Below are positions 26,297 through 39,874 of a DNA stretch of 44,338 bases, piece after piece. Origin of the DNA: a virus; IMG/VR virus record IMGVR_UViG_3300049846_001631, positions 1-44,338 of that record; one strand, given 5' to 3'. A model generated the notes under the pieces. It was not told the DNA's origin, did not search any database, and worked only from the letters and a program-made list of their open reading frames with translations. Positions within the stretch are counted from its first letter, which is position 1. Every line of letters begins with the position of its first letter. Both the position numbers and the translations under genes were made by a program.

Positions 26297-27690
26297 TAGA
26301 ACACCCCTGCAGCTTGACCACGAGACAGAACGTTGAACGCACCAGTGAATGCGTCAACACGATCGTCGTGGTAGTTGTCCGGCATAGTTACATCGATCTG
26401 CTTCTCGTCGACGAAGTCTTCCAGCTCTCGGAAGAACTCATCATTCCAAGCACCACGCAGCACCTTAATAAGACCATTCTCAGCAGCTGCACTCGCAGGC
26501 GCACTACGCGTCCACTTACTTCCGGTAGGCTTGATGAATCGTGGAGCGAAGTGGAGTAATTGCTGCGCAATGTCACCACGCTCAGCTTTACCTGCTTGCG
26601 CGGGATCCTGCTCAAACCACAGCTCGCACTCCTTAGGTGAGTTGTCCTGCTTAGCGATCGTTTTGATGTGCTCGCGTACAGCGTGCGGAGTTTTGCGGAA
26701 TGCCTCGCAATGCTCGATGACATACACGTCACCATAACGCGAGAGCTTAACGCCAGCACTTCTGTCAGGCGACTTCGAGATTGCACTCTCTTCAGTTCCA
26801 GCTCTGTCCCAGTAACGCACGCGACGTGGTCTTCCTGGAGGGAGTTGCTCGATGACTTCGAACCACTCGCGTCGGAAGCGCATGCCCTTCGAGCGTCGCA
26901 CCTTCCAGTTACCACCAAGCAGGACTTCACGTTCATACAAAGGTAGCGCCATCAACGTAGCACGATACCCAGGGTCCATGTCCACACCGATCTTGTTGTC
27001 GTCGATGCGTGCACCAATGAACGTTAGCGACTTGGCATCTTCAGGACGTGCCAGTTCATGGCGATGATTTGCCCATTGGATGTTATTTCCGTCGCGTATG
27101 AACCAACGTAGGACACCCGAACGCGCTTCGATGGGCAAACCGTTCGGACCAATCCACCAGTCGAGCAGGTCCGCGAGCCACGATCCCGGTTCCGGATTGC
27201 ACGACGCACGCGCATAAGGCCTCACTGCCATTCGTGTGGGTAGGCGATTACGAGACAGCATGTACCAGAATTGTGCTGCTGTGAAGTGAGGCAGCTCGTC
27301 GAACTCAACTAACGGGATCTGCGAGCCTTGCCAATCGAAGCGATTCTTCTCGTGTTGCATGTGTGCGAACTTGACGCGAGCACCACTCGGGAACGTAAAA
27401 GATAAATCACTCTCGCGAGCCACACCACCAAGCGGAGGATAAAGTTCCAATGCTTTATCCCACAGACCGCCTTGCATCTTAATTTCTGGGTACGTCCGGC
27501 GGAAGATCACTGCTCCGAACTCGGGCTTATCAATGTGGCGCAATGGCTCCATTAGTATTGCCATGCTCTTGCCGGAGAATGCTGCACCACCATAGATAAC
27601 AATGTCAGCCTTGGATGTGAAGAAGGCTGTCTGCGGACCTTCTTGCGGCCGTATCTCTCTTATAGGTGCTTCGAGTAGTTCAGTACTCAC
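26296..27690 (-). CDS. terL: Terminase large subunit (TerL), 464 aa
   Basis: An N-terminal ATPase has Walker A GGAAFSGKS (34-42), a coupling region, and Walker B-like VEFDE around residue 130. The C-terminal RNase H-like nuclease includes RYWDRAGTEES (about 292-302) with its acidic residue, and a DDRVDAFTGAF block near 440-450. The enzyme cuts concatemers and pumps DNA into the prohead via the portal. Start GTG 27690 overlaps the TGA of the preceding gene (GTGA). Gene order TerS-TerL-portal is canonical. Confidence 0.95.
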   Translation of the reverse strand: MSTELLEAPIREIRPQEGPQTAFFTSKADIVIYGGAAFSGKSMAILMEPLRHIDKPEFGAVIFRRTYPEIKMQGGLWDKALELYPPLGGVARESDLSFTFPSGARVKFAHMQHEKNRFDWQGSQIPLVEFDELPHFTAAQFWYMLSRNRLPTRMAVRPYARASCNPEPGSWLADLLDWWIGPNGLPIEARSGVLRWFIRDGNNIQWANHRHELARPEDAKSLTFIGARIDDNKIGVDMDPGYRATLMALPLYEREVLLGGNWKVRRSKGMRFRREWFEVIEQLPPGRPRRVRYWDRAGTEESAISKSPDRSAGVKLSRYGDVYVIEHCEAFRKTPHAVREHIKTIAKQDNSPKECELWFEQDPAQAGKAERGDIAQQLLHFAPRFIKPTGSKWTRSAPASAAAENGLIKVLRGAWNDEFFRELEDFVDEKQIDVTMPDNYHDDRVDAFTGAFNVLSRGQAAGVF

Positions 27691-28121
27691 TTCTTCACCT
27701 GCGGAGTATCGCGTCCGTTATCTGGGAGGAAGATAACCACTCCACCTTTACCGCCACCTTCAGTACTGCTTGGTGCCGCTTTCATCTCGACCATCTTTTT
27801 CTTGGCGTAGATGTATTGTGCGAGTTCGCAGTATGCGTTGTACCTTGTGTGCGGGGAGATGTATTCCAGCGCACGCTCCTTGCCCGATGGGACACGAGGG
27901 AGCACAGCATTGCCAGATACACGTGCCGCTCTTGCTGGTGCATCGAGTTCCGCCTGTGTCATGAAGCCGAGACCGACTACATCTCCTGCAGCGAACATCG
28001 CCATGCCCATGAGCGGATCACCACACACCTTCTGCACCATCTCACGTAGCTCGTCGAGACTCTCGTCTCCCGCTTTCGTGCGATAACGCTTATTGGCGTT
28101 TAGGCCATTGCGCTTGGTCAT
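27687..28121 (-). CDS. terS: Probable terminase small subunit
   Basis: The gene precedes and overlaps TerL. The 144-residue product (from ATG 28121; a longer start at 28145 is possible) has a basic N-terminus, a helical segment with DELREMVQKVCGDPLMGMAMFAAGD, and a helix near HTRYNAYCELAQYIYAKKKMVE. It ends in a Pro/Gly-rich tail. The helix layout is consistent with small terminases that recognise packaging sites. No diagnostic DNA-binding motif can be read by eye and neither start has a strong ribosome-binding site. Confidence 0.65.
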   Translation of the reverse strand: MTKRNGLNANKRYRTKAGDESLDELREMVQKVCGDPLMGMAMFAAGDVVGLGFMTQAELDAPARAARVSGNAVLPRVPSGKERALEYISPHTRYNAYCELAQYIYAKKKMVEMKAAPSSTEGGGKGGVVIFLPDNGRDTPQVKK

Positions 28122-28287
28122 GCTGGCGACCACTATGCACATCATTCTGCAGAGCGTGCAAGATTTCTGGAGGAGGTTGTGGCCTGAGGCTGTGGGCCCT
28201 CTCCCCTAGACTAACGCTAGATAACCATCCGGCGTTTTGGCTCGTTTCAAAATCCGACTTATAACCAATTTTAAGAAAAACCCCTAC

Positions 28288-28346
28288 TTACGATGTGACC
28301 GATAGCCATTAAATTATTTAGTACGATCTTTTCAATCACATCGTAA
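28288..28346 (-). promoter_or_regulatory. Leftward promoter framed by an 11-bp inverted repeat
   Basis: On the minus strand TTGAAA (28330-28335) and TTTAAT (28308-28313) are separated by 16 bp, close to a sigma-70 consensus. Directly outside lie arms of a perfect 11-bp inverted repeat: TCACATCGTAA (plus strand 28336-28346) just upstream of the -35, and TTACGATGTGA (28288-28298) at and after the expected start site. This geometry suggests a promoter for packaging and structural genes with regulator half-sites on both sides. Confidence 0.6.
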
Positions 28347-28383
28347 CTAGGCATTTTACTTTTATTTTGTCAAACCCACGATT

Positions 28384-28414
28384 CTGTATACAGCATGATA
28401 CGACTGGTATACAC
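28384..28414. promoter_or_regulatory. Paired GTATAC palindromes, operator candidates
   Basis: A perfect 10-bp palindrome CTGTATACAG (28384-28393) is followed by a second GTATAC centre (28407-28412, within TGGTATACAC). The centres are 21 bp apart, two helical turns, suitable for cooperative binding of a dimeric regulator. On the minus strand a weak promoter-like pair TTGCAC (28416-28421) and TATCAT (28395-28400) overlaps them with a short 15-bp spacer. Confidence 0.45.
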
Positions 28415-28435
28415 CGTGCAATCACCGCATTTTGC

Positions 28436-28582
28436 CCATTTCGGCATTACGGCGTTTTGTCCCCCCTATACCCCCCTCTTCCTAACTACCTAAAGACTAC
28501 TTTTAATTGTTTTAATTAGTTGTAAGTGTAATCTCGCAATTACAGCGTTTATAGCCCTCGGGGGGGCAAAACACCGAAATGG
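28436..28582. other. Long-range inverted repeat around an AT-rich core, origin candidate
   Basis: CCATTTCGG (28436-28444) and GTTTTG-T-CCCCCC (28454-28466) on the left match CCGAAATGG (28574-28582) and GGGGGGCAAAAC (28561-28572) on the right, with a 9-nt and a few single-base bulges. Between the arms lies an AT-rich stretch (about 28485-28555). The feature sits where the two arms diverge. It could be a replication origin, a transcription control structure or both; nothing proves either. Confidence 0.45.
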
Positions 28583-28605
28583 CCTGACCCCCCTTTTCAG
28601 CGATA

Positions 28606-28648
28606 TCAAAGTACTCCATAGACAGCACAAAAAAGCTTTCAAAGTACT
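28606..28648 (+). repeat. Two direct repeats TCAAAGTACT, 33-bp spacing
   Basis: The 10-mer TCAAAGTACT occurs at 28606-28615 and 28639-28648, both upstream of the first rightward gene (28724). They could be iterons or activator/repressor sites for the rightward operon. A promoter match nearby (TTGAGG 28660-28665, CATAAC 28685-28690, 19-bp spacer) is weak. Confidence 0.45.
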
Positions 28649-28723
28649 ACGCAAAACAGTTGAGGCGTTCCAATTCCGCCTCCCCATAACGGTTCGCGGA
28701 ACCCAAACCAAAGGAGGTATCCA

Positions 28724-29329
28724 ATGACCAACCCCGCAAGCAAAACCACCATGAGCGAGCTGACAGACCTTGTCGATCGCTTACGCCAATCGGTGGAGCG
28801 GAAGAACGCACCACGCAAAGCCGTTAAGGAGGTACGCATACCACGAGCACTGCTCGGAGAGTTCTACGCCCTCGTTGACGAGGAAGACGAAGCCGAACGC
28901 TTAGCACGCGACAACGTACGCTACAAAGGTATGCTCAGCGTTACGCACACACGTATGTACCGCTGGATACAAAAGAACTTCCCGGAACTGATCGGTTACG
29001 ACATCGGCGTAAAGATGGTCAGTGCGTTCGAAGCGTACATCATGCAGTGGACGGACACGTACGTTGATCCGAGGGCACCAACAAAACCCAACGCACGACT
29101 CCTGTACAACTTCTCGGAGACCGAGTTCGAAGAGCTGGAACCGTTCCTCGAAGACGAATTCCAAAGACGTAAAGGACGGTACGACCTCTGGAAGAAGATC
29201 TACCAGATGGTCCCTGCGGTTCGGACGTACGTGGACAACGATAAGCCATTACGCTTGAGCTCCCCACCGTTGCAGCTCTGGTACGATGAAGTGTCTGAAG
29301 ACGACACTCCAGCTACCGACAAGGAATAA
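28724..29329 (+). CDS. First rightward early gene, hypothetical, 201 aa
   Basis: A charged soluble protein. The N-terminal region (about 10-60) is helical and basic, residues 70-110 are aromatic, and the C-terminal third is acidic. A very strong AAGGAGG site (28711-28717) precedes the ATG. It is the first gene of the rightward arm, so it is probably expressed immediately after infection and may be a host-takeover or regulatory factor. No family recognised. Confidence 0.72.
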   Translation: MTNPASKTTMSELTDLVDRLRQSVERKNAPRKAVKEVRIPRALLGEFYALVDEEDEAERLARDNVRYKGMLSVTHTRMYRWIQKNFPELIGYDIGVKMVSAFEAYIMQWTDTYVDPRAPTKPNARLLYNFSETEFEELEPFLEDEFQRRKGRYDLWKKIYQMVPAVRTYVDNDKPLRLSSPPLQLWYDEVSEDDTPATDKE

Positions 29330-29395
29330 CACAACCTAAGTTACTAGCCTTGAAACCTCACACTCTTACATCCCTCGTCGGTAGGTTGGTCTTTG

Positions 29396-29466
29396 ACATA
29401 CGTAGTATAACGGAATTACTGGGGCGAGACCCGTCCTCGATGCAGGTTCGAATCCTGTCGTATGTC
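29396..29466 (+). tRNA. tRNA-like gene with atypical anticodon loop (formal GAC)
   Basis: A full cloverleaf can be drawn. The 7-bp acceptor (29396-29402 with 29459-29465) is perfect. The D arm pairs 29405-29407 with 29417-29419 and its loop contains GG. The anticodon stem is 29421-29425 with 29433-29437. A 4-nt variable region follows, then a 5-bp T stem with loop TTCGAAT. Tertiary bases U8, A14, A15, G18, G19, A21 and U48 are present. The anticodon loop (29426-29432, GAGACCC) lacks U33 and a purine at 37; positions 34-36 would be GAC (Val). No CCA is encoded. It may be a poorly decoding tRNA or a structural mimic that RNase P can process. Confidence 0.65.
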
Positions 29467-29468
29467 TC

Positions 29469-29577
29469 CTCGTTCTGATGATGACCGGAAGGTCGAAACC
29501 CACACACGGCGAATGCTGGCTGGTCTACATAGCAACAAAAGACTAGCCGATTTCGTCGCTGTGTGCGGGTAAACGAG
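29469..29577 (+). ncRNA. Candidate type I hammerhead ribozyme 1
   Basis: Stem I is CTCGTT (29469-29474) with AACGAG (29572-29577). Core CUGAUGA is at 29475-29481, followed by one extra U (29482). Stem II is GACC/GGUC with GGAA loop (29483-29494), then GAAA (29495-29498). Stem III pairs 29498-29512 with 29556-29570 (one A-C mismatch, one G-U) and carries an inner 9-bp hairpin. The GUA site predicts cleavage between 29571 and 29572, leaving 24 nt before ATG 29596. The extra core U departs from the strict consensus. The ribozyme begins 2 nt after the tRNA-like gene. Confidence 0.8.
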
Positions 29578-29595
29578 TATCATAAGGAGAACATT

Positions 29596-29622
29596 ATGAT
29601 TAGCTGGCCTAGACATGCTTAA
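29596..29622 (+). CDS. Leader peptide, 8 aa, overlapping the next gene
   Basis: A tiny frame, MISWPRHA, has an AAGGAG site 6 nt upstream. Its last 8 nt overlap the start of the 102-aa gene (ATGCTTAA). The downstream gene has no ribosome-binding site of its own, so it is probably translated by reinitiation. The ATG is exactly 24 nt from the predicted ribozyme cut, the same distance as at the second ribozyme, which supports its reality. Confidence 0.6.
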   Translation: MISWPRHA

Positions 29623-29923
29623 ACCACTCGACCTAAAGAGTTTGCTCTACGAGCTAGCCTACCTGCGCGGCGTTGACAGCTACGTACTCACCACGTATGA
29701 GTACCTGTTCGTGCGTAGCGAGATTCGGAATTACCTCCAGCTCCAGCCTGAAATGAATATGCACGTAGCGTTTACCCAAGATGCGCTTGTGATTAACGGT
29801 GTCCGTATCTTGAAGGGAGAGCTGAACGTCGCTCCACCAAAGGGCTTTTGTGGATCAACCGCAACCAACGAGTGTGAGTGGGTATACGAGAAACCCAAGA
29901 AGAAGAGGAAGGCATCGAGATGA
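29615..29923 (+). CDS. Hypothetical early protein, 102 aa
   Basis: A soluble, mixed alpha/beta protein with a basic C-terminal tail (KPKKKRKASR). It begins within the 8-codon leader frame and overlaps the next gene by ATGA (29920-29923). This starts a chain of six coupled small genes running to 31322. No domain recognised. Production would depend on ribosomes arriving from the leader peptide and on whichever 5' end the hammerhead generates. Confidence 0.7.
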   Translation: MLKPLDLKSLLYELAYLRGVDSYVLTTYEYLFVRSEIRNYLQLQPEMNMHVAFTQDALVINGVRILKGELNVAPPKGFCGSTATNECEWVYEKPKKKRKASR

Positions 29924-30129
29924 AGGACAAGAAAAAGAGCACGTACGAGCTTACCCCAGGAGAGTGGGTCCGTGCTGAAGTCGTGCCGAGAGTATTCCTG
30001 GTAGGAGTTATTGCAGCGATGACTCCGAATGGTAAGTTGGCCTTGATGGAAGGCTCCGGTGCTTGGCTTGATCCGAAGAAGTGCAAACCACTACCAGCCA
30101 AGCTGGTGAAGGAGATAAAAGCTTTATGA
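29920..30129 (+). CDS. Hypothetical early protein, 69 aa
   Basis: The start is set at ATG 29920 from the ATGA overlap; the longer frame lies inside the preceding gene. The product starts with a Lys-rich segment and contains a small beta-rich core (a WVRAEVVPRVFLVGVIAAM-like stretch, then GKLALMEG), reminiscent of small SH3-like barrels, although this is only a resemblance. The stop overlaps the next start. Confidence 0.65.
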   Translation: MKDKKKSTYELTPGEWVRAEVVPRVFLVGVIAAMTPNGKLALMEGSGAWLDPKKCKPLPAKLVKEIKAL

Positions 30130-30344
30130 GCGGAGACCACGCGAACGTTTACGCGAAGCACGCTATAGTATTCCCTACGCTACCAGCTGGGTACTACTTA
30201 GCACATCATCCAAAGCATCGTCCACAGGTTGTGGAGTTTTGCACCGTAGGCATCCCACACTGGCGTGGACCAAACAACGATCGTCTGCCCCACGACCCAC
30301 GGGACCTTGGGTACTACCTCGAAGTTATAAGGAAGCCGGAATGA
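30126..30344 (+). CDS. Hypothetical early protein, 72 aa
   Basis: The ATG at 30126 overlaps the previous stop (ATGA). The sequence is His/Pro-rich with several aromatic residues and a cysteine near the middle. It has no membrane segment and no clear family. It is coupled to the following gene by another ATGA overlap at 30341. Confidence 0.65.
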   Translation: MSGDHANVYAKHAIVFPTLPAGYYLAHHPKHRPQVVEFCTVGIPHWRGPNNDRLPHDPRDLGYYLEVIRKPE

Positions 30345-30595
30345 TCGGTGGGAAGATAATCCAAGTCGACTTCGACTTCCAAGACGATACCGTCTATGTT
30401 GTGGTACGCGACGACCCACCGTACGAGCGTGACACCACAAAGCGAGTTCTTCCGCTCACGAAGAAGACACGTTGTATCGGCGTAGGCGACAGTATCTGGT
30501 GGCAGAATAAAATCCATTACTGGACGCCACAAGGCAGCGCACGCAAGGTCATCGGAGCAGACTACGACATCCGTGTTACGGGACCAAACACATGA
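30341..30595 (+). CDS. Hypothetical early protein, 84 aa
   Basis: The start at ATG 30341 is chosen from the ATGA overlap; longer frames are shadows. The protein is beta-strand rich (IIQVDFDFQDDTVYVVV and a later KIHYWT segment) with alternating acidic and basic residues. It is coupled to the next gene (ATGA 30592-30595). Function unknown. Confidence 0.67.
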   Translation: MIGGKIIQVDFDFQDDTVYVVVRDDPPYERDTTKRVLPLTKKTRCIGVGDSIWWQNKIHYWTPQGSARKVIGADYDIRVTGPNT

Positions 30596-30906
30596 ACTTA
30601 CCTACGTGCAACAACACCGGATTCACCCTAGCTGGTAATGCACAAGACCACGTGATGAAGGCTACGCGGTATTACACCATGGCCGAGGGTATGCTCTCCG
30701 AGGCGAGGTTCCAGCACCGTAAATTAACAATAAAAGAACTTAAGCGGATAGACGATTACTACATGCATGGTGACGCGCACCAAGCGTTGGCTGAGGTAGT
30801 CGATCCGCGTGCCAAGATATACAGAAGAAAAGATTACCCGATCACAACCGGCGACACCATAGTGGTAGCGTTGGCTGATCACAATAAAAAAGGAAAAGCA
30901 CCATGA
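30592..30906 (+). CDS. Hypothetical early protein, 104 aa
   Basis: The middle is a long helical region (about residues 18-65) with many Ala/Glu/His residues, followed by a short strand segment and a basic tail. It lies in the coupled small-gene chain and overlaps the next start (ATGA). No known motif. Confidence 0.67.
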   Translation: MNLPTCNNTGFTLAGNAQDHVMKATRYYTMAEGMLSEARFQHRKLTIKELKRIDDYYMHGDAHQALAEVVDPRAKIYRRKDYPITTGDTIVVALADHNKKGKAP

Positions 30907-31322
30907 GTGCCGATACCGCTCGCATCACCAAGAAACCAGAAGACGGCAAGGACCGTAAGAAGGGGCACAAGGCTCGATTCCTAACGCGCCTATTCGAGAA
31001 CCAACCTCGCGCCAAACTTTCCGACGCGAAGCTCGCAGCTGAGTGTAAGAAAGAGTACCCGAACGTTAAGTCCGACTGGGAGAGTCGTATGTCGGCTTTC
31101 CGTCGCATCTACAACAAGGGGCATTTTTTCGGGCAGAAGAAAAAGCCTACCGTACCTGCCGTTCGCTACGACAACGACGGTAAGATTATGTTCCCAACGC
31201 CACCCGGACGCAAGCCTGGAGTGAAGCTGAAAAAGAACGCAGCAGACAAGAAGCCTGAAGCACGAACCACAGCACCGGCACAAACAACGGCAGCAAAGCC
31301 AGTGACCGTTAAGAAGTCGTAA
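30903..31322 (+). CDS. Basic hypothetical protein, probable nucleic-acid binding, 139 aa
   Basis: The protein is Lys-rich throughout. Residues about 20-85 include a helical segment that could fold as a small DNA- or RNA-binding unit. From about residue 90 it is a low-complexity tail of Pro, Lys, Ala and Thr, like the disordered tails of histone-like proteins. It is the last gene before a strong terminator. Function inferred only from charge. Confidence 0.65.
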   Translation: MSADTARITKKPEDGKDRKKGHKARFLTRLFENQPRAKLSDAKLAAECKKEYPNVKSDWESRMSAFRRIYNKGHFFGQKKKPTVPAVRYDNDGKIMFPTPPGRKPGVKLKKNAADKKPEARTTAPAQTTAAKPVTVKKS

Positions 31323-31329
31323 CCCTCGG

Positions 31330-31392
31330 CCCACCGGCATGGAGTCTTGCTCCTTTGTGCGCAGGGTTCCGCTCCATGTCGGTGGGTCTTTT
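31330..31392 (+). terminator. Intrinsic terminator after the small early genes
   Basis: A 15-bp stem with one G-U pair (CCCACCGGCATGGAG at 31330-31344 with CTCCATGTCGGTGGG at 31372-31386) is followed by TCTTTT. It ends the first block of early genes and separates it from the helicase/nuclease block, whose first gene starts 12 bp later. Read-through or an antitermination mechanism would be needed if no promoter lies between. Confidence 0.8.
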
Positions 31393-31403
31393 ACGGAACT
31401 CGT

Positions 31404-31580
31404 ATGAAATCACGCATACGCGACACGCAAGCATGTAGGAAACCACACACATGCAGTTACTGCAAACGAACAATCCCCAAAGGCGATCCGTGCTGGGAAT
31501 TGTCTATGCTTGAAGAAGCTATAGGCAAAACCTACGTACGTTCGATATACCGGTGCAGGCCATGTCGCCCCAAGGCCTAA
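31404..31580 (+). CDS. Small zinc-finger-like protein, 58 aa
   Basis: The ATG at 31404 lies just after the terminator; the longer frame crosses the hairpin. Two CxxC-type pairs are present (CSYC near residues 16-19 and CRPC near 52-55), with one further Cys in PCW. This is consistent with a treble-clef or zinc ribbon that binds nucleic acid. It has no close ribosome-binding site. It overlaps the next frame. Confidence 0.6.
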   Translation: MKSRIRDTQACRKPHTCSYCKRTIPKGDPCWELSMLEEAIGKTYVRSIYRCRPCRPKA

Positions 31581-31819
31581 GATGCTACGGCGGACCACTC
31601 GACGGTAAATGGATAGTACTACGTCCAGGAGTAGGTGAAGTTTTTATTAGTTGTCCCACTGATTTACTCTCAACTCCGGCAGAACACTGGGTGATACAAG
31701 AGACACCGGTATTATTCAGCAGCCGTGCCGATACTGGCCACATCGTAATGCTAAAAGGTAGGTACAAAGTGATCGAGCGACACACGCAAATACTTTCATG
31801 GCAAGGGTACGAGAAATGA
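31562..31819 (+). CDS. Hypothetical YGGPLDG-type small protein, 85 aa
   Basis: ATG 31562 is preferred over GTG 31553 because it is closer to a GCAGG site. The N-terminus has a RCYGGPLDGKW block that I have seen in small phage proteins of unknown function. It is beta-rich with no membrane span. It overlaps the zinc-finger gene 5' and the helicase gene 3' (ATGA at 31816-31819). Confidence 0.62.
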   Translation: MSPQGLRCYGGPLDGKWIVLRPGVGEVFISCPTDLLSTPAEHWVIQETPVLFSSRADTGHIVMLKGRYKVIERHTQILSWQGYEK

Positions 31820-33174
31820 ATCTTCGTCCAGCGTTACCGCACCAAGCTATCGCCCTAGCTTCTCCCCAATTGGAGAACGACTACGCCGGACTCTTCATGG
31901 ACATGCGCTTAGGTAAAAGCTTAGTGCTGCTCCGCTGGTTGAAGATGAAGGAAGCGACTAACACTTTACTGGTTGCTCCAGACCTGCCCTTAGCTGACTG
32001 GGAGTCGGAGTGCGAACGCGAGGAGGTTGCCTTCGAGCGCATACGAGGAACAAAAAAGAAACGATTGGAACGAGTAGAGTATTGGAAACGCAGAATACTA
32101 GATGCCGTTTACACGTACGGATACATCCCGTTCGTTGTAGCGGTGACCTACGAGACGTTGCGCGTTACGCCTGAGCTGCTCGAACTACCGTGGGATTGTG
32201 TAGCCCTCGACGAGTCGACGCACATTAAGAATCCCAAGGCAGCAATTACCAAGTTGCTACTACGCAAATGTAGTAACTTCCATAACCGTGCTGTGCTCGC
32301 TGGTCTACCGAGACCGCAAGGACCGATGGAGATCTTCACACAGATGCAGTTTTTGCTCGGTGGATCGTTCATGGGGCATAGCAATTTTTGGAAGTGGCGA
32401 GACAGGTTTTTCTTCCAAGCTGGCTACGAGTTCTTACCACGCAAAGGAGCAATGCAAGCCATCAAGGACGCAACCCACGAGCACGCAGTGGTAATGACAA
32501 AGGCTGAAGCCGGTATCACGCGCCATGTGGAACGTAAAACGCTACGCGCACCACTCGACAAGAAAGCTAACGATCTACAGAATAAGATTGTCACTGATTG
32601 GGCTGCTGAAGACTACAGCACGTTGTACGCTCCCGTGAAGTCTGGTTGGCTTGAACGCTTGGCTGGTGGGCATGATCCGAATTGGAATCGGATACCGTGT
32701 TGGAAGTACGATGCCCTGGTGGAATTCCTGGAGGAGTTGGGCGACGAGCAAGCCGTTATCTGGGCTCGGTTCAATAAAGAACAAGAGCGAGCGTACGAAG
32801 TACTCAACGACAAGGGATGGACGGCCGAAGTTCTGAATGGCTCTGTGGTACCTGAGCACCGCAAGTCCGTACTGAATAGATTCCGTGGAGGGAAGATCCA
32901 GTACCTAATCTGCCAGCCCATCCTTGTACGTTATGGTGTGGACCTTGCCAACGCCGACGTCAGTATTTACCTATCGAGCGATTACTCTCACCTCACCAGG
33001 AGACAGTCCGAAGAACGCACCAGCCATCCGATGAAGAAAAAGCCTACATTGATCGTAGACTTCATCAGCGAGGGTTCGGCCGATGAGATCGTGCATGAAG
33101 CCTTGCGCGACATGAAGGCTGATGCTTCGTGGTTCATGAACCGTGTGAAACTTAAACTAGGGAGAAAGAAATGA
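31816..33174 (+). CDS. SF2/SNF2-like DNA helicase, 452 aa
   Basis: The ATG at 31816 is coupled to the previous gene; the frame extends further 5' but overlaps it. Motif I is MDMRLGKS (G33-S35), motif II is LDEST (D132-E133), and a GLPRPQG motif III-like stretch follows. C-terminal motifs include ICQPILVRYGVDLANAD and the arginine-finger-like RRQSEERTSHP. This is the two-RecA-domain layout of compact SNF2-type helicases found in phages. It may act in replication fork or recombination steps with the nearby RuvC-like and Cas4-like enzymes. Confidence 0.85.
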   Translation: MNLRPALPHQAIALASPQLENDYAGLFMDMRLGKSLVLLRWLKMKEATNTLLVAPDLPLADWESECEREEVAFERIRGTKKKRLERVEYWKRRILDAVYTYGYIPFVVAVTYETLRVTPELLELPWDCVALDESTHIKNPKAAITKLLLRKCSNFHNRAVLAGLPRPQGPMEIFTQMQFLLGGSFMGHSNFWKWRDRFFFQAGYEFLPRKGAMQAIKDATHEHAVVMTKAEAGITRHVERKTLRAPLDKKANDLQNKIVTDWAAEDYSTLYAPVKSGWLERLAGGHDPNWNRIPCWKYDALVEFLEELGDEQAVIWARFNKEQERAYEVLNDKGWTAEVLNGSVVPEHRKSVLNRFRGGKIQYLICQPILVRYGVDLANADVSIYLSSDYSHLTRRQSEERTSHPMKKKPTLIVDFISEGSADEIVHEALRDMKADASWFMNRVKLKLGRKK

Positions 33175-33428
33175 ATGATTATCTGGAAGAAATAAATCGA
33201 CTACGTGCTAAGCTTGCAGAGGCACAGCAGGAGCGAGACGTAATGGAGCGGGAGCGTGGGCTACTGGCTGAGTCGCTTCCAGCATTACGTAGGATCCTCA
33301 ACCACGCCGATCCTGACTGTAGTATTTGCGGCGGCACAACTCAGGCGCATGGGCTTGGCCACAAACCGGCATGTCTTACTAGGCGCATCGACGCTGCCCT
33401 CACCCCGCCGAAGGAGGCGAGCGAATGA
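33171..33428 (+). CDS. Small coiled-coil/zinc protein, 85 aa
   Basis: Residues 1-40 form a charged helix with heptad features; residues about 48-70 have CSICGG, two His and a Cys in an order that could bind zinc. It overlaps helicase and RuvC-like genes (ATGA at both ends). It may be a partner of one of these enzymes; inference from neighbours. Confidence 0.62.
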   Translation: MNDYLEEINRLRAKLAEAQQERDVMERERGLLAESLPALRRILNHADPDCSICGGTTQAHGLGHKPACLTRRIDAALTPPKEASE

Positions 33429-33934
33429 GTAGTGTGTGGCTCAGTATTGATCCAGGTCTCGGAGGTACTGGTTACGCTATATGGGAAACCGGTACGCCTT
33501 CACGGCACTACAAGAAAGCTCTGCTGTACTCAGGACAGGTGAGTTGCTCTATTGGAGACGATAGTGTAGTCGCACGGGCTTCAGATATAGCCAGAGAGCT
33601 GGTATATCAAATCGTACAAAACATCTCTGTAGATGAAACTGTTAGTCGTGCGTACGTAGAAGAGCCTGCGTATATGGGCGGACCGACAGCTCGACGTGGG
33701 GACTTAGTCAAACTGACACTGACAGCAGGCATAATAGTAGAGACCGTACGTGAGAAATTCAAATGCCCTATAAATATGGTCCGTGTGATTGACTGGAAGG
33801 GTAACGCACCTAAAGAAATTATTGCGAAGCGTGTGTGCCATCTAATGGGTTGGTCCGTTGATAGCGTTAAGAAAGATAACCATAAGCTCGACGCTGTAGG
33901 TATCGGGCTTCACTGCTTAGGAGTATTCAAATGA
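33425..33934 (+). CDS. RuvC-like Holliday junction resolvase, 169 aa
   Basis: This is an RNase H-fold enzyme. The first catalytic Asp is in SIDPGLGGTGYA (D9), the conserved acidic residue is in AYVEEP (E79/E80), and the C-terminal acidic residue is in HKLDAVGIG (D156). The fold order and size (about 160-180 residues) match RuvC. The role would be cutting branched DNA before packaging or during recombination. A GAAGGAGG site precedes the start. Confidence 0.85.
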   Translation: MSSVWLSIDPGLGGTGYAIWETGTPSRHYKKALLYSGQVSCSIGDDSVVARASDIARELVYQIVQNISVDETVSRAYVEEPAYMGGPTARRGDLVKLTLTAGIIVETVREKFKCPINMVRVIDWKGNAPKEIIAKRVCHLMGWSVDSVKKDNHKLDAVGIGLHCLGVFK

Positions 33935-34092
33935 AAGTGCTAGTTAAGAAAAAGAGAAGAAACAATATCGTAATCACAGTAGCAGGAAAGCGATTTTTCT
34001 GCCGTCGTGGATGTAACGTATTTAACAATCCTACGAACGATGCGAAGTTGTACGAGTGCAACTCATGCAAAGTTCAATACAAGGGGGAATAA
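33931..34092 (+). CDS. Small zinc-ribbon protein, 53 aa
   Basis: This 53-residue frame starts at the ATGA overlap with the RuvC-like gene and ends at the start of the nuclease gene (TAATG at 34090-34094). The N-terminus is Lys/Arg-rich; Cys residues near 24 and 28 and a later CNSC motif (about 43-46) make a four-Cys zinc-ribbon pattern. Likely nucleic-acid binding. Supported by tight coupling on both sides. Confidence 0.6.
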   Translation: MKVLVKKKRRNNIVITVAGKRFFCRRGCNVFNNPTNDAKLYECNSCKVQYKGE

Positions 34093-35108
34093 TGAATGCA
34101 TTCAAACTAACGAACCCGTTACGTAACCGTAACAACGCTACGTACAAGTACGATCCTCGCGAGCACGGTGTTAGCCAGTCGATGCTTGAAGCGTGGTTGG
34201 TATGCCGTGAGAAATCTCGCCTTAGCACGTTGTTAGGCTGGTCGAGTTCTGGTGCCAGCAAGCCGTTGACCTTCGGAGATCTTTCCCACGGTATCCTGGA
34301 GAGGGTGTACAACGGGGTACGTTCGAAGAAGGTGCGCAACCTTAAGGACGCTGTGGCTATGGTCCCGCACGCGGCAGTACAAGCACGTGACGCGTTCTTC
34401 GCAGCACAACCACGGGTACTAACGTCTACCAAGGATCTGGTGGAGGAGTGCCTTGCTATTTTGCTCAAGCAGATGCCGCTTTACTTCGACAAGTGGATAA
34501 AAGAAGACCTAGCTGTCGAGTGGATCTTGGTGGAAGATAAGTTCGCAGTACCTATCAAAACAAAGTGGGGAAACATACCGATGGTGGGTAAGTTTGACGG
34601 TGTGATTAAGCGCAAGGGGAAGGTTGGCGTGTTCGAGACCAAGAATAAGTCACAGTGGTCCGCTGAGCTGCTCGACTTGCTACCACTGGACCTGCAATTG
34701 AGTTACTACATCGCTGCGTGTCACCACAAGAAACTTGATCCGTCGTTTGCCCTTTACAACTTAATCCGTCGCCCAGGCGAGCGTAGAAAAGTAGACGAAC
34801 CGTTGAAGGTGTTCGCAGAACGCATAGAGCAGAACATAATAAAAGAACCAAGTCATTACTTTGAACGCTACGATGAGCAGCTGACACCCAAGGATATAAA
34901 AACATACTGCGCCAGGGCAGAAGCTCTCGTCCAGGGATTCGCGCAATGGTACTTTGAAGCTCCACACGACGACCGGGACTTGATGTGGAATTCGTTCAGC
35001 TGCGAGAATAAGTACGGTGTGTGTAGCTTGTTACCAATTTGCGCTAAGGGAGACTTCGACGGGCACTATATCCGCCAGCATGTGTCGCCAGAATTGGCTA
35101 CCAAGTAG
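34092..35108 (+). CDS. Cas4/RecB-like PD-(D/E)XK nuclease with Fe-S cysteines, 338 aa
   Basis: The start at 34092 uses the TAATG overlap and an AAGGGGG site. The nuclease core is GKFDGVI (D169) and VGVFETKNK (E182, K184). An N-terminal Cys (C38, in LVCREKSR) and three C-terminal Cys near residues 305-325 (C-x7-C-x5-C) match the four-Cys iron-sulfur arrangement of Cas4/AddB-type nucleases. Such enzymes resect DNA ends 5' to 3' in phage recombination. With the SSB-like and Sak4-like proteins downstream it makes a plausible recombination set. Confidence 0.82.
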   Translation: MNAFKLTNPLRNRNNATYKYDPREHGVSQSMLEAWLVCREKSRLSTLLGWSSSGASKPLTFGDLSHGILERVYNGVRSKKVRNLKDAVAMVPHAAVQARDAFFAAQPRVLTSTKDLVEECLAILLKQMPLYFDKWIKEDLAVEWILVEDKFAVPIKTKWGNIPMVGKFDGVIKRKGKVGVFETKNKSQWSAELLDLLPLDLQLSYYIAACHHKKLDPSFALYNLIRRPGERRKVDEPLKVFAERIEQNIIKEPSHYFERYDEQLTPKDIKTYCARAEALVQGFAQWYFEAPHDDRDLMWNSFSCENKYGVCSLLPICAKGDFDGHYIRQHVSPELATK

Positions 35109-35184
35109 AATTTTAATTAGGTGCAGCGAACCAAAATTTGGTGCGCATGCTCCGCGTCCAACCTAACCGCGAGGAGAACATCGC

Positions 35185-36336
35185 GTGAGTACTGAAAACA
35201 AAAACAACTCAATGTACGACGACGCCTGGCATCGTCCGCACGCAGATCACAAAGGGGAATTCCCAACTGTGACTACGACGGTCGGACCGGAGTCGCTCAA
35301 AGTAACGCTCAACAGCTGGGGACCGAACGACGGTAAACTTCTGTCGACGATTTACAATCAAGCACAATCGAACTGGGGCGAGTCACCATCGTACCTGAAC
35401 AACGACAAGGAGCTAACCCCAAGCCAGCTTAATGTCGTAGAGCAAATCCTGGCTGGCAAGCATTTGCAGAACGCTCTCGAAGTTATCAGCTTCGCGTTCA
35501 CCGTCGAGGGATGTACCCGTGCTTGTACCCATGAGATGGTTCGCTCTCGCGTAGGGGCAAGCTTCGCACAGCATGGTGGTCGCGACAACGATTGGCGTCA
35601 CCGTGGATGGACTATGCCGGAGACGGTTGATAGAATGATTAAAGTACAGCAAGACGCACTACATCCAGAATTGGTGTCGTGCGGGAATGGGCAAACGTTT
35701 ACGAATTTCATGCGTCACTACTTGGAAGAAGCCGGACTGATTTTAACGCACGACTTCGAGTCGCAGCTGTTGGAGCGTTGGAGTGACGGTGGTAGGATGC
35801 ACGCATACCTGATGCTTACGCTGACTATGCAGAAGTGCGCGTATGCTGCTATGGTTGACGCTGGTGTGCCTTGGCAGGACGCTCGACGGATACTAGGCAT
35901 CGGACATCAGACCTACATTCACGCGAACTATAACTTCGTCGCGTTACGTGGTGTATTGGCGCACCGATTGGAGCATATGGCTGTGGACTGGGAGATTGAT
36001 TGCGTAGCACAATTAATGATGCGTGAGATCTGGTTGCATTGCCCACGAATTATCGCTCGCGCATTGGGGAGCCACTCCGACAAAGCTGGCGTGAACAAGT
36101 TCGCAAATTTATACTCGTGGCCACCGAACGGTAAGTGGCCAAACCCAAAAGACCATGACGAGAATCGTAAGAATACATTCAACCGTCTGCAGGGTCCGTT
36201 TTTCGTACTGGATCCACGTTGCTTAGTCCAAGCAGACCGACCGGTAAGCTGGATTAAGACGAACGGAATCTTCCCGCACAAAGAGTACAACACTCTGGCG
36301 TTGGAAGTACAAGAAGAACTCAACCGGAGATACTAA
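35185..36336 (+). CDS. ThyX-like flavin-dependent enzyme with diverged signature, 383 aa
   Basis: The overall layout resembles ThyX: a helix with RAC.HEMVRSR, a RSRVGASFAQHGGR segment at the signature position, and a C-terminal VPWQDARRILG then NFVALRGVLAHRLEHMAVDWEI block. In classical ThyX the signature is RHR..S; here the His is Ser and one residue appears inserted before SFAQ. The protein is also longer than typical ThyX (about 220-300). It may make dTMP, or modify a different deoxynucleotide. The GTG start has a GAGGAG site. A 13-nt near-palindrome (35130-35142) lies in the 76-bp gap before it. Confidence 0.65.
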   Translation: MSTENKNNSMYDDAWHRPHADHKGEFPTVTTTVGPESLKVTLNSWGPNDGKLLSTIYNQAQSNWGESPSYLNNDKELTPSQLNVVEQILAGKHLQNALEVISFAFTVEGCTRACTHEMVRSRVGASFAQHGGRDNDWRHRGWTMPETVDRMIKVQQDALHPELVSCGNGQTFTNFMRHYLEEAGLILTHDFESQLLERWSDGGRMHAYLMLTLTMQKCAYAAMVDAGVPWQDARRILGIGHQTYIHANYNFVALRGVLAHRLEHMAVDWEIDCVAQLMMREIWLHCPRIIARALGSHSDKAGVNKFANLYSWPPNGKWPNPKDHDENRKNTFNRLQGPFFVLDPRCLVQADRPVSWIKTNGIFPHKEYNTLALEVQEELNRRY

Positions 36337-36337
36337 C

Positions 36338-37210
36338 ATGCCTATCGTCAGCAAGGTCGGCTCGAAAAAGCCGATCGCAGGGGTAGTCGCCCCTTTCACA
36401 TTACCCACAACCAAGAATGTACCGTCGGTCGAACTACTCGACTACAGCATTCTGCTTTACGGAGGGAAGAAGATCGGAAAGACGTCTCTTGCTGGGCAAT
36501 TCCCGGACGCGTTGTTCCTGGCGTTAGAACCCGGAACAAAGGCCTTACGAGTTTACTCCGTGCCCGTACCAGATTGGACCGCGTTCTGCAAAGCCATCGA
36601 CGCTCTCAAAGCAGACAAGTCCAAACGGTATCGTACTGTGGTGATTGACACCGTGGACGTGGCTTATGGACTTCTGTATCAGCAGGTGATGAATGAGCGT
36701 GGCATAGCCCACCCCAACGACGAGAAAGACCACGGTGCAACGTGGGGTGAGATTCGTCGCCGCTTCCGTGAGCAGATGCTGAAGGTTCTCAATCTCAAAA
36801 TGGGTGTGATATTTATCAGTCACGAGACCGAAAAAGAATTCGAGCAAAGTGATGGTAGCGTTGTTGATCGCAAGCAACCGACAATGTCGAAGCAAGCAAT
36901 GGAAGAAGTAGAAGGTCTGGTGGATGTGGTAGCCCACTACCACTACATCGGATCACAACGAGCACTCCGGATAGATGGTCTGGAAACCGTAGTCGCCGGA
37001 GCACGGTTAGAAGAGAACTTCGTCCGCAAGGGAGGAAGTCCTCGCTCCCCAGGAGATCGCATCCAAGTGATCCCGATGGGGTTGACCGCGAAGGAAGCGT
37101 ATAACAATTTCGTAAAGGCTTTTCAAAACGAGCAGGAGAAACCTGATCCGTTTGAGAAGCCAGTCTCTGTGAAGCCGAAGACGAAGGTCGTCGTAGGCAA
37201 GAAAAACTAA
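36338..37210 (+). CDS. Sak4-like RecA-type ATPase, 290 aa
   Basis: A single RecA-like ATPase domain with Walker A GGKKIGKT (42-49) and Walker B VVIDTVD (about residues 102-108). It then contains a HETEKEFE segment and a C-terminal part ending in a Lys-rich tail. Size and order match Sak4-type single-strand annealing/recombinase ATPases of phages. The following gene encodes an SSB-like protein, the usual partner. Start ATG with GGAG upstream. Confidence 0.78.
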   Translation: MPIVSKVGSKKPIAGVVAPFTLPTTKNVPSVELLDYSILLYGGKKIGKTSLAGQFPDALFLALEPGTKALRVYSVPVPDWTAFCKAIDALKADKSKRYRTVVIDTVDVAYGLLYQQVMNERGIAHPNDEKDHGATWGEIRRRFREQMLKVLNLKMGVIFISHETEKEFEQSDGSVVDRKQPTMSKQAMEEVEGLVDVVAHYHYIGSQRALRIDGLETVVAGARLEENFVRKGGSPRSPGDRIQVIPMGLTAKEAYNNFVKAFQNEQEKPDPFEKPVSVKPKTKVVVGKKN

Positions 37211-37234
37211 CCCATCAACACCAAGGAGTATACC

Positions 37235-38098
37235 ATGGGTAAGCTAGGCATCAAAATCAACAAGAACGTCTTCTCATCCGGAGCGAAGAAATTCGCCGAG
37301 GGTGATCAATTCGACAACGTACAACTTCCGAACGGTCGTTATATCGTTGCGTTCGTAAAAGGACGTGCGGTCGAAGCGAAAGGGAAGCCGAGCGTAGTGC
37401 TGGACTTCATCGTCGGGAAGGACCACGAAGAGTTTGCTGGCCAGCGTGGCAGCATTTTCTACAACCTTAGTGAAGAACATTCCGTTTGGTTGTTCCGAGC
37501 TCTGGCTAAGCTGGGCTTTGAAGTCGACTCGCTCGACGAAGAAGGTCTCGCGGAAATCCTGGAGCAGTTGGAGGCTTCGCCGGTCGTCGCTCGTATCGTA
37601 GCGAAGGAGAAGGATGACTTCACGAACTACAACATCGACAAGAAGGTCGATCGCGATATCTCTGAAGTGATGCCTGAAGGTGCTGCTGCGGAAGCAACGG
37701 AAGAGCAGGAGCAAGAGCAGGAAGAGGAGACGAAGGAAGAACCGGAAGGCGACGACCTGGCTGAATTGTCACGGGACGAACTGAAGAAGATCCTCACCAA
37801 AGAGAAGATCGACTTCAAGGTATTCAAGAACACCGAGGACGATGCCATTCGTGACGCCATCCGCGAGGCTCGTGGCGGTAAGCAAGAAGAAGAGCAGGAA
37901 GAGGAAGAGACCAAAGAAGAAGAACCGGAAGGCGAGTCAGTTGAGCTGAAGGTCGGCGATAAGTGCACCGTGACCCATCGTGGTAAAGAACACGCTGGTG
38001 CCAAGGTGAAGAGCATCGACGAAAAAACTGGCAAGATCAAGGTGGAGCTCAAGGACAAGACGGTCGTGATCGTGACCGCAGAGCAAATCACCGTTTGA
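37235..38098 (+). CDS. SSB-like protein with acidic linkers, SAP/HeH-like and KOW-like modules, 287 aa
   Basis: Residues about 1-140 resemble phage SSB/DUF669-type single-strand DNA-binding proteins (OB-like strands with a long helix). Then come a Glu/Gln-rich acidic linker (about 155-175), a LSRDELKKILTKEKIDF helix pair typical of SAP/HeH modules (about 180-215), a second similar acidic linker (about 220-235), and a C-terminal KOW-like beta domain. The two acidic stretches share EEETKEE-PEG. The stop codon TGA (38096-38098) overlaps the first stem of ribozyme 2. Confidence 0.68.
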   Translation: MGKLGIKINKNVFSSGAKKFAEGDQFDNVQLPNGRYIVAFVKGRAVEAKGKPSVVLDFIVGKDHEEFAGQRGSIFYNLSEEHSVWLFRALAKLGFEVDSLDEEGLAEILEQLEASPVVARIVAKEKDDFTNYNIDKKVDRDISEVMPEGAAAEATEEQEQEQEEETKEEPEGDDLAELSRDELKKILTKEKIDFKVFKNTEDDAIRDAIREARGGKQEEEQEEEETKEEEPEGESVELKVGDKCTVTHRGKEHAGAKVKSIDEKTGKIKVELKDKTVVIVTAEQITV

Positions 38099-38157
38099 TA
38101 CGCTGATGAGCCCGAAAGGGCGAAACCGATCGAGGCTCCCCTTGGTCGGTACGTATC
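38097..38157 (+). ncRNA. Candidate type I hammerhead ribozyme 2 (textbook core)
   Basis: Stem I is GATACG (38097-38102) with CGTATC (38152-38157). Core CUGAUGA is at 38103-38109. Stem II is GCCC/GGGC with GAAA loop (38110-38121), then core GAAA (38122-38125). Stem III is 11 bp with two G-U pairs (38125-38135 with 38140-38150, CUCC loop). The GUA site predicts cleavage between 38151 and 38152. All consensus core bases are present. The first stem begins in the stop codon of the SSB-like gene and the cut leaves 24 nt before ATG 38176. Confidence 0.92.
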
Positions 38158-38175
38158 TATCAACTGGAGGATTCC

Positions 38176-38727
38176 ATGCACCCAGACCGTAACGCCAAGC
38201 GAGTGTATCTCGCTGGTCCTTTCTTCAACGCAGCGCAGATCGCACTGATCCAGGAAGTTGAGGATGCGCTCGCCGCGATGAACATCCCGACTTTCTCGCC
38301 AAGAAAGATGGCACTGAACGACAAACCAACCACAACCAAACCTACACCGGAGCAAGCTGCGCAGATATTCCGCAAGGATTACGAAGAGATAACCAAGAGC
38401 ACGCACGTAATCGCTGTGCTCGATTGGGCTTTGAATCCTGGTGTCTCTCTTCGCTTGTGCAAGAACGACGTAGGTGAGGATGGTCCACTACAACCTATTA
38501 GCGATCACCTGTCGCTACCGGATGCTGGTACGGTGTGGGAGATGGGCTGCGCGTACGCGTTGCGCGTGCCCGTATACCTTTACACACAGAACCCTGCAGC
38601 CAAGTTGAACTTGATGCTGTCGCAGTCAGCACGTGGCGTTCTGTACGGAATCGATCACCTGAAGACATTCCTTGGTGCTGGTATGGATGAAGATCTTCTC
38701 TCACCGTGGAAAGGAGAGCACCGATGA
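38176..38727 (+). CDS. Nucleoside 2-deoxyribosyltransferase-like protein, 183 aa
   Basis: The N-terminal KRVYLAGPFF (8-17) and the catalytic-region PDAGTVWEMGCA (D116, E122) are the hallmark blocks of nucleoside 2-deoxyribosyltransferases, which exchange bases on deoxynucleosides or cleave them. An insertion rich in Pro/Thr/Lys (about 48-62) is present. The start has GGAGG 5 nt upstream and is the first gene after ribozyme 2. Together with the HD nucleotidase and kinase that follow, it belongs to a deoxynucleotide salvage or remodelling cassette. Confidence 0.85.
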   Translation: MHPDRNAKRVYLAGPFFNAAQIALIQEVEDALAAMNIPTFSPRKMALNDKPTTTKPTPEQAAQIFRKDYEEITKSTHVIAVLDWALNPGVSLRLCKNDVGEDGPLQPISDHLSLPDAGTVWEMGCAYALRVPVYLYTQNPAAKLNLMLSQSARGVLYGIDHLKTFLGAGMDEDLLSPWKGEHR

Positions 38728-39341
38728 ATATACGAGAACTACTTCTTGGTGACGTAGTGCGTATGCGCTATGTACATCGGTTCGGCACTTGCCGAGTCCT
38801 AACAAAAGAAACCGTCGCGGAGCACGTTGCGTTCACCGGTATTTACTCTACCTTGGTAGCTCGGTGGGTGCGTAGGCACAACCCATCTGTGGTGGTGAAC
38901 GTAGGAAAACTCCTAGAGCGTGCACTATTTCACGACATCGAAGAAGTAATAACTGGCGACATGCCTCGGCCGCACAAGCACTCCAATCCACAACTCGCTT
39001 TGTTGATGGAACAATCAGCCATGACGTGCGCGAAGGAGGTTTTCACACGGATAGAACTAGACGACGAAGACACCATAGAACTATTCGATGGTTGGAACAC
39101 CGCGAAGAGCGATGGCTACGAAGGGCGAATCTTAAGCTTCGCCGATTTCTTAAGTGCCATCTCTTTTATCTTCCAAGAAGTGCAAGGAGGGAACCGCACC
39201 ATAGAAAAGCACATCTCTTCCTGTCGCGAGTACACGAATACATTCAAGTCGGCACGGTACGACTTCATCGCTCCGCTGGTATTACAAACCGAAGCTCTGA
39301 TGGATGAAGTGTTCAGTACATTCTCTGTGGGGAAGCGATGA
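38724..39341 (+). CDS. HD-domain 5'-deoxynucleotidase (YfbR-like), 205 aa
   Basis: The start at ATG 38724 overlaps the previous stop (ATGA). The metal motif is H34 in VAEHVAFTG, then H70-D71 in LFHDIEEVITGDMPRP, and later FADFLSAISFIFQE, all matching the YfbR/HD phosphohydrolase family. Such enzymes dephosphorylate dNMPs (YfbR) or, in related phage branches, dNTPs. It would alter host dNTP pools. The call is well supported, the substrate is not. Confidence 0.85.
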   Translation: MNIRELLLGDVVRMRYVHRFGTCRVLTKETVAEHVAFTGIYSTLVARWVRRHNPSVVVNVGKLLERALFHDIEEVITGDMPRPHKHSNPQLALLMEQSAMTCAKEVFTRIELDDEDTIELFDGWNTAKSDGYEGRILSFADFLSAISFIFQEVQGGNRTIEKHISSCREYTNTFKSARYDFIAPLVLQTEALMDEVFSTFSVGKR

Positions 39342-39874
39342 AAAGACTCTGGTTTGTAGAAGGTATGGACGGTGTCGGTAAAACGACATTGGTACGAGAA
39401 CTACAAAACCGGTCCGGATACGCTATCTGTGGTTTGGTTGACCGTGGTCCATTATCTCGTGTGATATGGGCAGAAGCACACAACGAAAGTTACGACGCTG
39501 TAGCTTGGCGTGAGTGGTTGGAGTCGTTCACACAAGATCAATTCAAACGTATTGGTGTGCTGCTACTGCTCGGTTCCTGGGATGGACGTGCCGGAGCTGT
39601 CTTGCGTGAAGAGATGGCCCAAGATGGGTACCGTGGTTTGCTGTGGACAAGAGACTATTGGATTGACATGCAAAGAAACTATGTATCCGCTGCAACGTAC
39701 CTGTCTCTAAAGGGACTGCCCGTTCAGATAATCGATACAGAAAAGTCATTTGAAGAAACTTTACTCTTAGCTGCAACCGCACTAGGATACACCAAAGCCG
39801 TATTCAACACCCCTGCCAAGTACAACATGGGAGAAAAGGAGCGGAACGATGGTCGCAGTAAGAAAACGATCTGA
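39338..39874 (+). CDS. Deoxynucleoside monophosphate kinase, dTMP kinase-like, 178 aa
   Basis: The P-loop GMDGVGKTT (9-17) and DRGPLSR segment near residues 34-40 are typical of thymidylate/deoxynucleotide kinases. The rest has a lid-like loop around 85-100. Length is short for Tmk (about 200-210). It may phosphorylate products of the ThyX-like enzyme or the nucleoside exchanger. It overlaps PolA by 26 nt. Confidence 0.8.
   Translation: MKRLWFVEGMDGVGKTTLVRELQNRSGYAICGLVDRGPLSRVIWAEAHNESYDAVAWREWLESFTQDQFKRIGVLLLLGSWDGRAGAVLREEMAQDGYRGLLWTRDYWIDMQRNYVSAATYLSLKGLPVQIIDTEKSFEETLLLAATALGYTKAVFNTPAKYNMGEKERNDGRSKKTI

Follow-up and report, generated by a model that had tools for sequence, protein, structure and literature searches.

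Why does a phage genome carry two hammerhead ribozyme motifs between genes, each the same short distance ahead of a start codon? The function of prokaryotic and phage hammerheads has been termed an open question in the field (PMC6155905). The window analyzed here is the whole stretch of an IMG/VR virus record (44,338 bases). The minus strand carries its structural genes (terminase, capsid, tail). From ~28.7 kb, a block of rightward genes encodes a helicase, a RuvC-like resolvase, an exonuclease, ThyX, a Sak4-like protein, a nucleoside deoxyribosyltransferase, a YfbR-like nucleotidase, a kinase-like protein, DNA polymerase A, and a primase-like protein. Both hammerheads lie on the coding strand inside this replication/nucleotide block. 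The region from 27600 to 39400 had no DNA match among named phages, and blastn of each ribozyme against phages returned short chance matches only.

A sequence-only reading had described the two motifs as one evolved module, a ribozyme plus a ribosome-binding leader, used twice in one genome. Its anatomical description agreed with our sequence check throughout (Table 1). The predicted cuts (29571/29572 and 38151/38152) each fall, exact to the base, 24 nt before an ATG (29596 and 38176), with UAUCA at leader positions 7-11 and GGAG at 15-18 at both sites; stems I and II are unlike between the sites, and each is fully paired. The conserved core (CUGANGA ... GAAA) is exact at both, site 1 having one additional U after A9. 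Stems II and III are closed and stem I is open, and H17, the base before the 3' strand of stem I, is A and not G.

Table 1. Coordinates of the two ribozyme sites and of the adjoining genes in the window.
Feature	Position	Strand	Evidence
tRNA-like gene (tRNA-Val, gac), directly 5' of ribozyme 1	29395..29469	+	ARAGORN
Hammerhead ribozyme 1, type I	29469..29577	+	structure scan, covariance model, fold
Ribozyme 1 stem I, CTCGTT / AACGAG	29469-29474 / 29572-29577	+	sequence check
Ribozyme 1 core, CUGAUGA; GAA	29475-29481; 29495-29497	+	structure scan
Ribozyme 1 extra U, between A9 and stem II	29482	+	sequence check
Ribozyme 1 stem II, GACC-GGAA-GGUC	29483-29494	+	structure scan
Ribozyme 1 long stem III	29498-29570	+	structure scan
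Predicted cleavage site 1, GUA^A (H17 = A29571)	29571..29572	+	structure, fold
Post-cleavage leader 1, 24 nt: stem I strand, UAUCA (29578-29582), Shine-Dalgarno GGAG (29586-29589)	29572..29595	+	
8-codon ORF, MISWPRHA (stop); last codons overlap ATG 29615	29596..29622	+	
102-aa ORF, no Shine-Dalgarno sequence of its own	29615..29923	+	
287-aa ORF; stop TGA (38096-38098) in 5' strand of ribozyme 2 stem I	37235..38098	+	
Hammerhead ribozyme 2, type I	38097..38157	+	Rfam HH9 20.2 bits (below cutoff), scan, covariance model, fold
Ribozyme 2 stem I, GATACG / CGTATC	38097-38102 / 38152-38157	+	sequence check
Ribozyme 2 core, CUGAUGA; GAA	38103-38109; 38122-38124	+	structure scan
Ribozyme 2 stem II, GCCC-GAAA-GGGC	38110-38121	+	structure scan
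Ribozyme 2 stem III	38125-38150	+	structure scan
Predicted cleavage site 2, GUA^C (H17 = A38151)	38151..38152	+	structure, fold
Post-cleavage leader 2, 24 nt: stem I strand, UAUCA (38158-38162), Shine-Dalgarno GGAG (38166-38169)	38152..38175	+	
Nucleoside 2-deoxyribosyltransferase gene (PF05014); first gene on mRNA from predicted cut 2	38176..38727	+	

A structure scan of the window for the core with stems II, III, and I returned exactly these two places (scores 22.5 for site 1 and 20.1 for site 2). A stricter filter demanded, besides the core, ≥4 bp in each of stems II and III and ≥6 bp in stem I; three matches arose under it in 400 Markov-shuffled windows (best score 11.9) and one, scoring 9.5, in 1.9 Mb of reversed real phage DNA. 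We also built a covariance model from 24 short GNRA-loop hammerheads of other phages, leaving the window out; 98.9% of their stem cells are paired, and 12 of 15 pairs vary on both sides. The model recovered site 2 at 38095-38161 (52.6 bits, E = 1.2e-15) and the core of site 1 (29467; 21.5 bits, E = 8e-5), where it misplaces stem III and the score is penalized for the 73-nt stem III (closing bases included) and the extra U. This U is the sole case among 164 hammerheads, most scans having excluded such variants by design. With flanks included, the minimum free energy fold is the hammerhead at both site 1 (29390-29625; stem I pair probabilities 0.58-0.88) and site 2 (38040-38260; ~0.7), and competing folds can win at either site in longer or shorter fold windows. 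By these structural models, both sites are type I hammerhead ribozymes, not chance matches, with cleavage predicted.

The placement seen in the window recurs widely among phages. In the viral collection, a pattern with a CC/GG stem II matched at least 119 viral contigs and a GNAA-loop pattern matched 69. Among the matches listed, our parser recognized 167 hammerheads of type I and 75 of type III in the fetched loci; the distinct type I hammerheads number 164, spread over 111 viral loci, of which 29 carry at least two copies and two carry six. Clustering by sequence reduced the type I set to 99 independent groups. For type I hammerheads in these listed loci, start codons are most frequent 23-28 nt past the cut, and a start codon with a Shine-Dalgarno sequence lies 20-30 nt after the cut in 27 of the 99 clusters, against 2.6 expected from random same-strand positions (2.6%; P = 4e-20). 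Stem I is exactly 6 bp in 77/99 clusters. Where the upstream gene could be assessed (an ORF of at least 60 codons ending nearby), its stop codon falls within the ribozyme in 70 of 119 cases, mostly as the UGA of CUGA or as UAA in stem I; site 2 agrees, its UGA overlapping stem I. Both window sites have their Shine-Dalgarno start codon inside the 20-30 nt range, although the ORF at site 1 has only eight codons. Because roughly one cluster in two lacks a Shine-Dalgarno start in the 60 nt after the cut, the leader role is common but not universal. The downstream genes are mutually unrelated (phage RNA polymerase, ligase, MazG, ArdC-like, and many uncharacterized); since their proteins belong to many families, it is the position that is kept and not the gene. 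Dozens of unrelated phages share a ribozyme-before-start arrangement, often in several copies each. A module of ribozyme and ribosome-binding leader reused within a genome is therefore real and broader than the sequence-only reading had proposed, with up to six copies per locus, but without the UAUCA and GGAG 24-nt signature: the spacing of 24 nt is within the modal range and is one value in a spread.

Further instances of UAUCA and GGAG behind a hammerhead core at the same spacing had been named as what would support a family. We searched the viral collection for CTGATGA...CGAAAC...TATCANNNGGAG, with stem III gap ranges (short and long) together covering 10-52 nt, and no other hammerhead in it carries UAUCA-N3-GGAG in the equivalent position after stem I; we therefore rejected the word as a family signature. 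Where hammerhead matches of the scan contained it, the word lay 31 nt past stem I (L004, L008), was stem I itself (L138, L140, L145), or stood downstream of a type III ribozyme (L134 and kin), and the remaining matches were chance occurrences in coding sequence. What the class does share is a link between loop II and the bases flanking stem I. A GNRA loop II accompanies U immediately 3' and U or C immediately 5' of stem I, and a U..U or U..R loop II accompanies A on both flanks. With the window excluded, the 3' U occurs in 33/38 GNRA-class versus 5/101 U-rich-class hammerheads (P = 2e-21), or 22/27 versus 3/55 by cluster (P = 3e-12). UA follows stem I in 27 of 40 GNRA cases. Both window ribozymes are of the GNRA class and follow the rule. 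Such covariation of the stem I 3' flank with the loop II class is the pattern expected for a contact between loops I and II. The suggestion that UAUCA is the stem I loop touching loop II is in this way reasonable for its first two letters (U1, A2), which may make the contact, whereas the remaining letters are not common to the class. At site 1, UAUCA can alternatively be explained by a predicted leader hairpin (AUCAUAA/UUAUGAU) that would pair with the start region and hold GGAG in its loop.

These patterns suggest what the two ribozymes might do. We consider it likely that each ribozyme cuts its transcript between two genes and thereby leaves a structured end on the upstream RNA, and a 5'-OH with a minimal leader on the downstream mRNA; cleavage itself, the end chemistry in vivo, and any effect on translation or stability are inferred from the architecture. 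The type I hammerheads would cleave the rightward early/replication transcripts of the phage between genes. The upstream RNA would terminate in hairpins of the ribozyme itself with a 2',3'-cyclic phosphate, and the downstream mRNA would begin with a 5'-OH ~24 nt ahead of the start codon, a length that just fits the stem I 3' strand, a short linker, and the Shine-Dalgarno sequence. At site 1, the cut would part the tRNA-like RNA from the mRNA of the 102-aa ORF, and at site 2 the 287-aa ORF from the deoxyribosyltransferase gene. The likely benefit would be that long transcripts are divided, independently of the host, into units whose ribosome-binding site is clean and open. RNase III sites do a comparable transcript-processing job in the early mRNA of phage T7. 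For phages at large, we give about an even chance to a shared between-gene cassette, in which a type I hammerhead often supplies the upstream stop codon, its cut sets a leader of 20-30 nt, and it sometimes, as at site 1, splits a tRNA-like RNA from an mRNA.

Transcript processing by phage hammerheads has precedents. In the passages of Perreault et al. 2011 (PMC3088659) considered here, clustered prophage hammerheads were proposed to process transcripts into gene-length mRNAs, and tandem arrangements cleave in vitro. Those prophage hammerheads resemble the present ones in lying between phage genes, several per genome, next to genes of variable identity; the same passages do not give the narrow cut-to-start distance, the in-ribozyme stop, or the link between loop II and stem I flanks reported here. 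The part of that source dealing with HHphage of haloviruses HF1/HF2 likewise places a hammerhead just before an early gene's start codon, where a transcript begins at the predicted cut, although HHphage is a structural variant located 13 nt before a helicase start codon in an archaeal virus. Our additions to the 2011 processing proposal are two rules, one on placement and one linking loop II to the stem I flanks, and the tRNA neighbors; we did not find these in the literature, in a search that lay largely outside subscription journals, and earlier reports may exist. If the cassette reading is true, phages possess a general host-independent maker of mRNA 5' ends, and the arrangement suggests that 5'-OH mRNAs are common during phage infection. 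The placement rule makes the role testable, by asking whether cutting sets the mRNA 5' end and how much of the downstream protein is made. The same rule (in-ribozyme stop, stem I of 6 bp, start codon 20-30 nt past the cut) offers a way to find such ribozymes, most of which Rfam thresholds miss.

Other explanations of the two sites deserve weighing against this processing role. Rfam raises the question of whether both are inactive remnants or chance look-alikes: its curated thresholds are unmet at either site (20.2 bits versus 52 at site 2, no match at site 1), even though the sites have the type I core and fold in common with Hammerhead_1 (RF00163) and HH9 (RF02275), the latter matching site 2 weakly. 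Most phage relatives are missed in the same way, with one hammerhead found at curated cutoffs in nine loci holding many, and the null controls and the independent covariance model speak against this explanation, leaving it only a very slight chance. Micro-RNA matches that Rfam reported were taken as chance. Nor do we think that the two ribozymes and their leaders are recent copies of each other, an in-genome duplication that we judge quite improbable. The 24-nt spacing and the register of UAUCA and GGAG at both sites would fit such copying. Among pairs of GNRA-class leaders from different contigs, some same-register 5-mer occurs in 4.6% and an equal cut-to-start distance in 5.5%, a joint coincidence of ~0.25% if the two are independent. 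However, this coincidence is weak evidence, given some nine positions in the same register and several possible kinds of match; the loop II class already predicts UA, and GGAG represents a Shine-Dalgarno sequence. For ribozymes of this class, the leader features common to both sites depart only mildly from the usual. Stem I, stem II, and all flanking sequence are unlike, and the stem III interior measures 71 versus 24 nt. As the two ribozymes share only the core, the class rule, and the leader words, recent duplication is not supported; unlike but paired stems, read earlier as the sign of one evolved module, do indicate that pairing is required but do not imply common descent. Weighing against the processing role at site 2, two relatives (L131, L132) preserve the order of genes surrounding the deoxyribosyltransferase, with ~45-60% protein identity, yet have no hammerhead before this gene, where a short conserved hairpin stands instead. 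The site 2 ribozyme is accordingly not conserved before the same gene and, being absent there, is dispensable in that position; it has therefore been gained or lost across the distance to L131 and L132.

A regulated switch, with the Shine-Dalgarno sequence masked by upstream pairing until cleavage, is a very doubtful alternative. One fold of 29461-29600 pairs the tRNA 3' strand (AUGUCUCCU) with the leader (AGGAGAACAU) and hides GGAG, and a comparable alternative lies within 0.1 kcal/mol at site 2; once the whole tRNA-like sequence is included, however, the tRNA and the hammerhead form and the masking helix is lost. Across 92 hammerheads, pairing between the Shine-Dalgarno sequence and the 5' flank (4.42) was not enriched over swapped flanks (4.36), 71 of 300 swaps reaching or exceeding the observed value, and we rejected such masking as a general feature. 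An outer extension of stem I was also rejected as weak and non-significant (25/200 swaps at or above the observed value).

The tRNA-like gene at site 1 opens a further possibility, that this ribozyme mainly serves the tRNA-like RNA, as theta ribozymes do, and that the leader is incidental. Theta ribozymes are HDV-like, associated with phage tRNAs, and cut within 5 nt of the tRNA 3' end (Kienbeck et al. 2024, PMC10879173). Site 1 resembles them as a small ribozyme, with predicted self-cleavage, adjoining a tRNA-like phage gene, but identity with them was rejected: it has a hammerhead fold and a cut 102 nt downstream of the tRNA end. Ribozyme 1 begins at the predicted tRNA end, and the neighborhood recurs. 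A pattern of a T arm followed by a hammerhead matched 23 viral contigs; in L058/L237, L080, L231/L234/L236, L232, L235, and L241, ARAGORN placed a tRNA upstream of the core at a distance of 7-17 nt, and L233 and L171 have a tRNA 0-1 nt after the cut. The tRNA-like gene has a perfect acceptor stem and a canonical T arm, and its cloverleaf is predicted to form together with the hammerhead in the flanked fold. Still, a cut so far past the tRNA end cannot alone generate the mature 3' end of a tRNA, A replaces U at position 33 of the anticodon loop, and the predicted cut leaves a Shine-Dalgarno leader, so that we regard service to the tRNA as unlikely to be the main role. A 22-nt match of the stem III insert of ribozyme 1 near the ribozyme of L080 was considered as an aptamer and set down to chance (BLAST E = 0.7, at another structural place). 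For the site 1 region we found no relatives, and a family search with the 102-aa ORF gave no match. Two features here had not been described in the sequence-only reading, the tRNA-like gene itself and the 8-codon ORF at the site 1 ATG. From the overlap of its last codons with the next start, the 102-aa ORF is probably reached by termination-reinitiation from this short ORF.

Across several phages, a hairpin that copies the tRNA T-arm, GTGAGGGTTCAAACCCTCAC, lies directly 5′ of hammerhead ribozymes of both type III and type I (see table). At the hairpins of contigs L155, L172, L195, L239, and L240, ARAGORN identified no tRNA. The scan that yielded these sites had itself selected for the T-arm word; even allowing for this selection, the recurrence of a tRNA-free T-arm hairpin before hammerheads is striking.

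Hairpins associated with hammerheads, or replacing one, in the compared contigs
Feature	Contig	Position	Strand
T-arm-like hairpin and hammerhead	L155	4270	+
T-arm-like hairpin and hammerhead	L172	9067 and 7972	+
T-arm-like hairpin and hammerhead	L195	2835	+
T-arm-like hairpin and hammerhead	L240	2292	+
T-arm-like hairpin and hammerhead	L239	three sites	
Conserved hairpin GTGGYCCCGGCGATACGGGRCG	L010	2934–2966	
Conserved hairpin GTGGYCCCGGCGATACGGGRCG	L009	2933–2962	

On contigs L233 (6633, plus strand, Tyr) and L171 (3321, minus strand, Gly), the predicted tRNA 5′ end falls 0–1 nt past the hammerhead cut, a position at which ribozyme cleavage could possibly substitute for RNase P processing.

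The search of bacterial and archaeal species genomes with the GNAA-loop hammerhead pattern returned matches predominantly in Patescibacteria (CPR) MAG contigs (loci L204–L230). These ribozymes are of type III with a UGUGUA-like stem I loop, and constitute a family separate from the type I hammerheads of phages. Within ribozyme 1 of the window, the stem III insert (29513–29535) matched positions 6099–6120 of contig L080 over 22 nt (91%, BLAST E = 0.7), directly 3′ of the L080 hammerhead, which is located in a tRNA cluster; this match is probably due to chance. Upstream of the deoxyribosyltransferase gene, which follows ribozyme 2 in the window, relatives carry a conserved hairpin instead of a hammerhead (see table).

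Two further regions of the window were noted. A noncoding, AT-rich gap (28200–28720) separates two divergent gene blocks, contains a long inverted repeat (ACGATGTGA...TCACATCGT, 28290–28345), and is likely a control region or replication origin. Positions 35185–39874 hold a cluster encoding ThyX, the nucleoside deoxyribosyltransferase, a YfbR-like nucleotidase, and a kinase-like ORF, possibly a pathway toward an altered nucleotide pool or a modified base.
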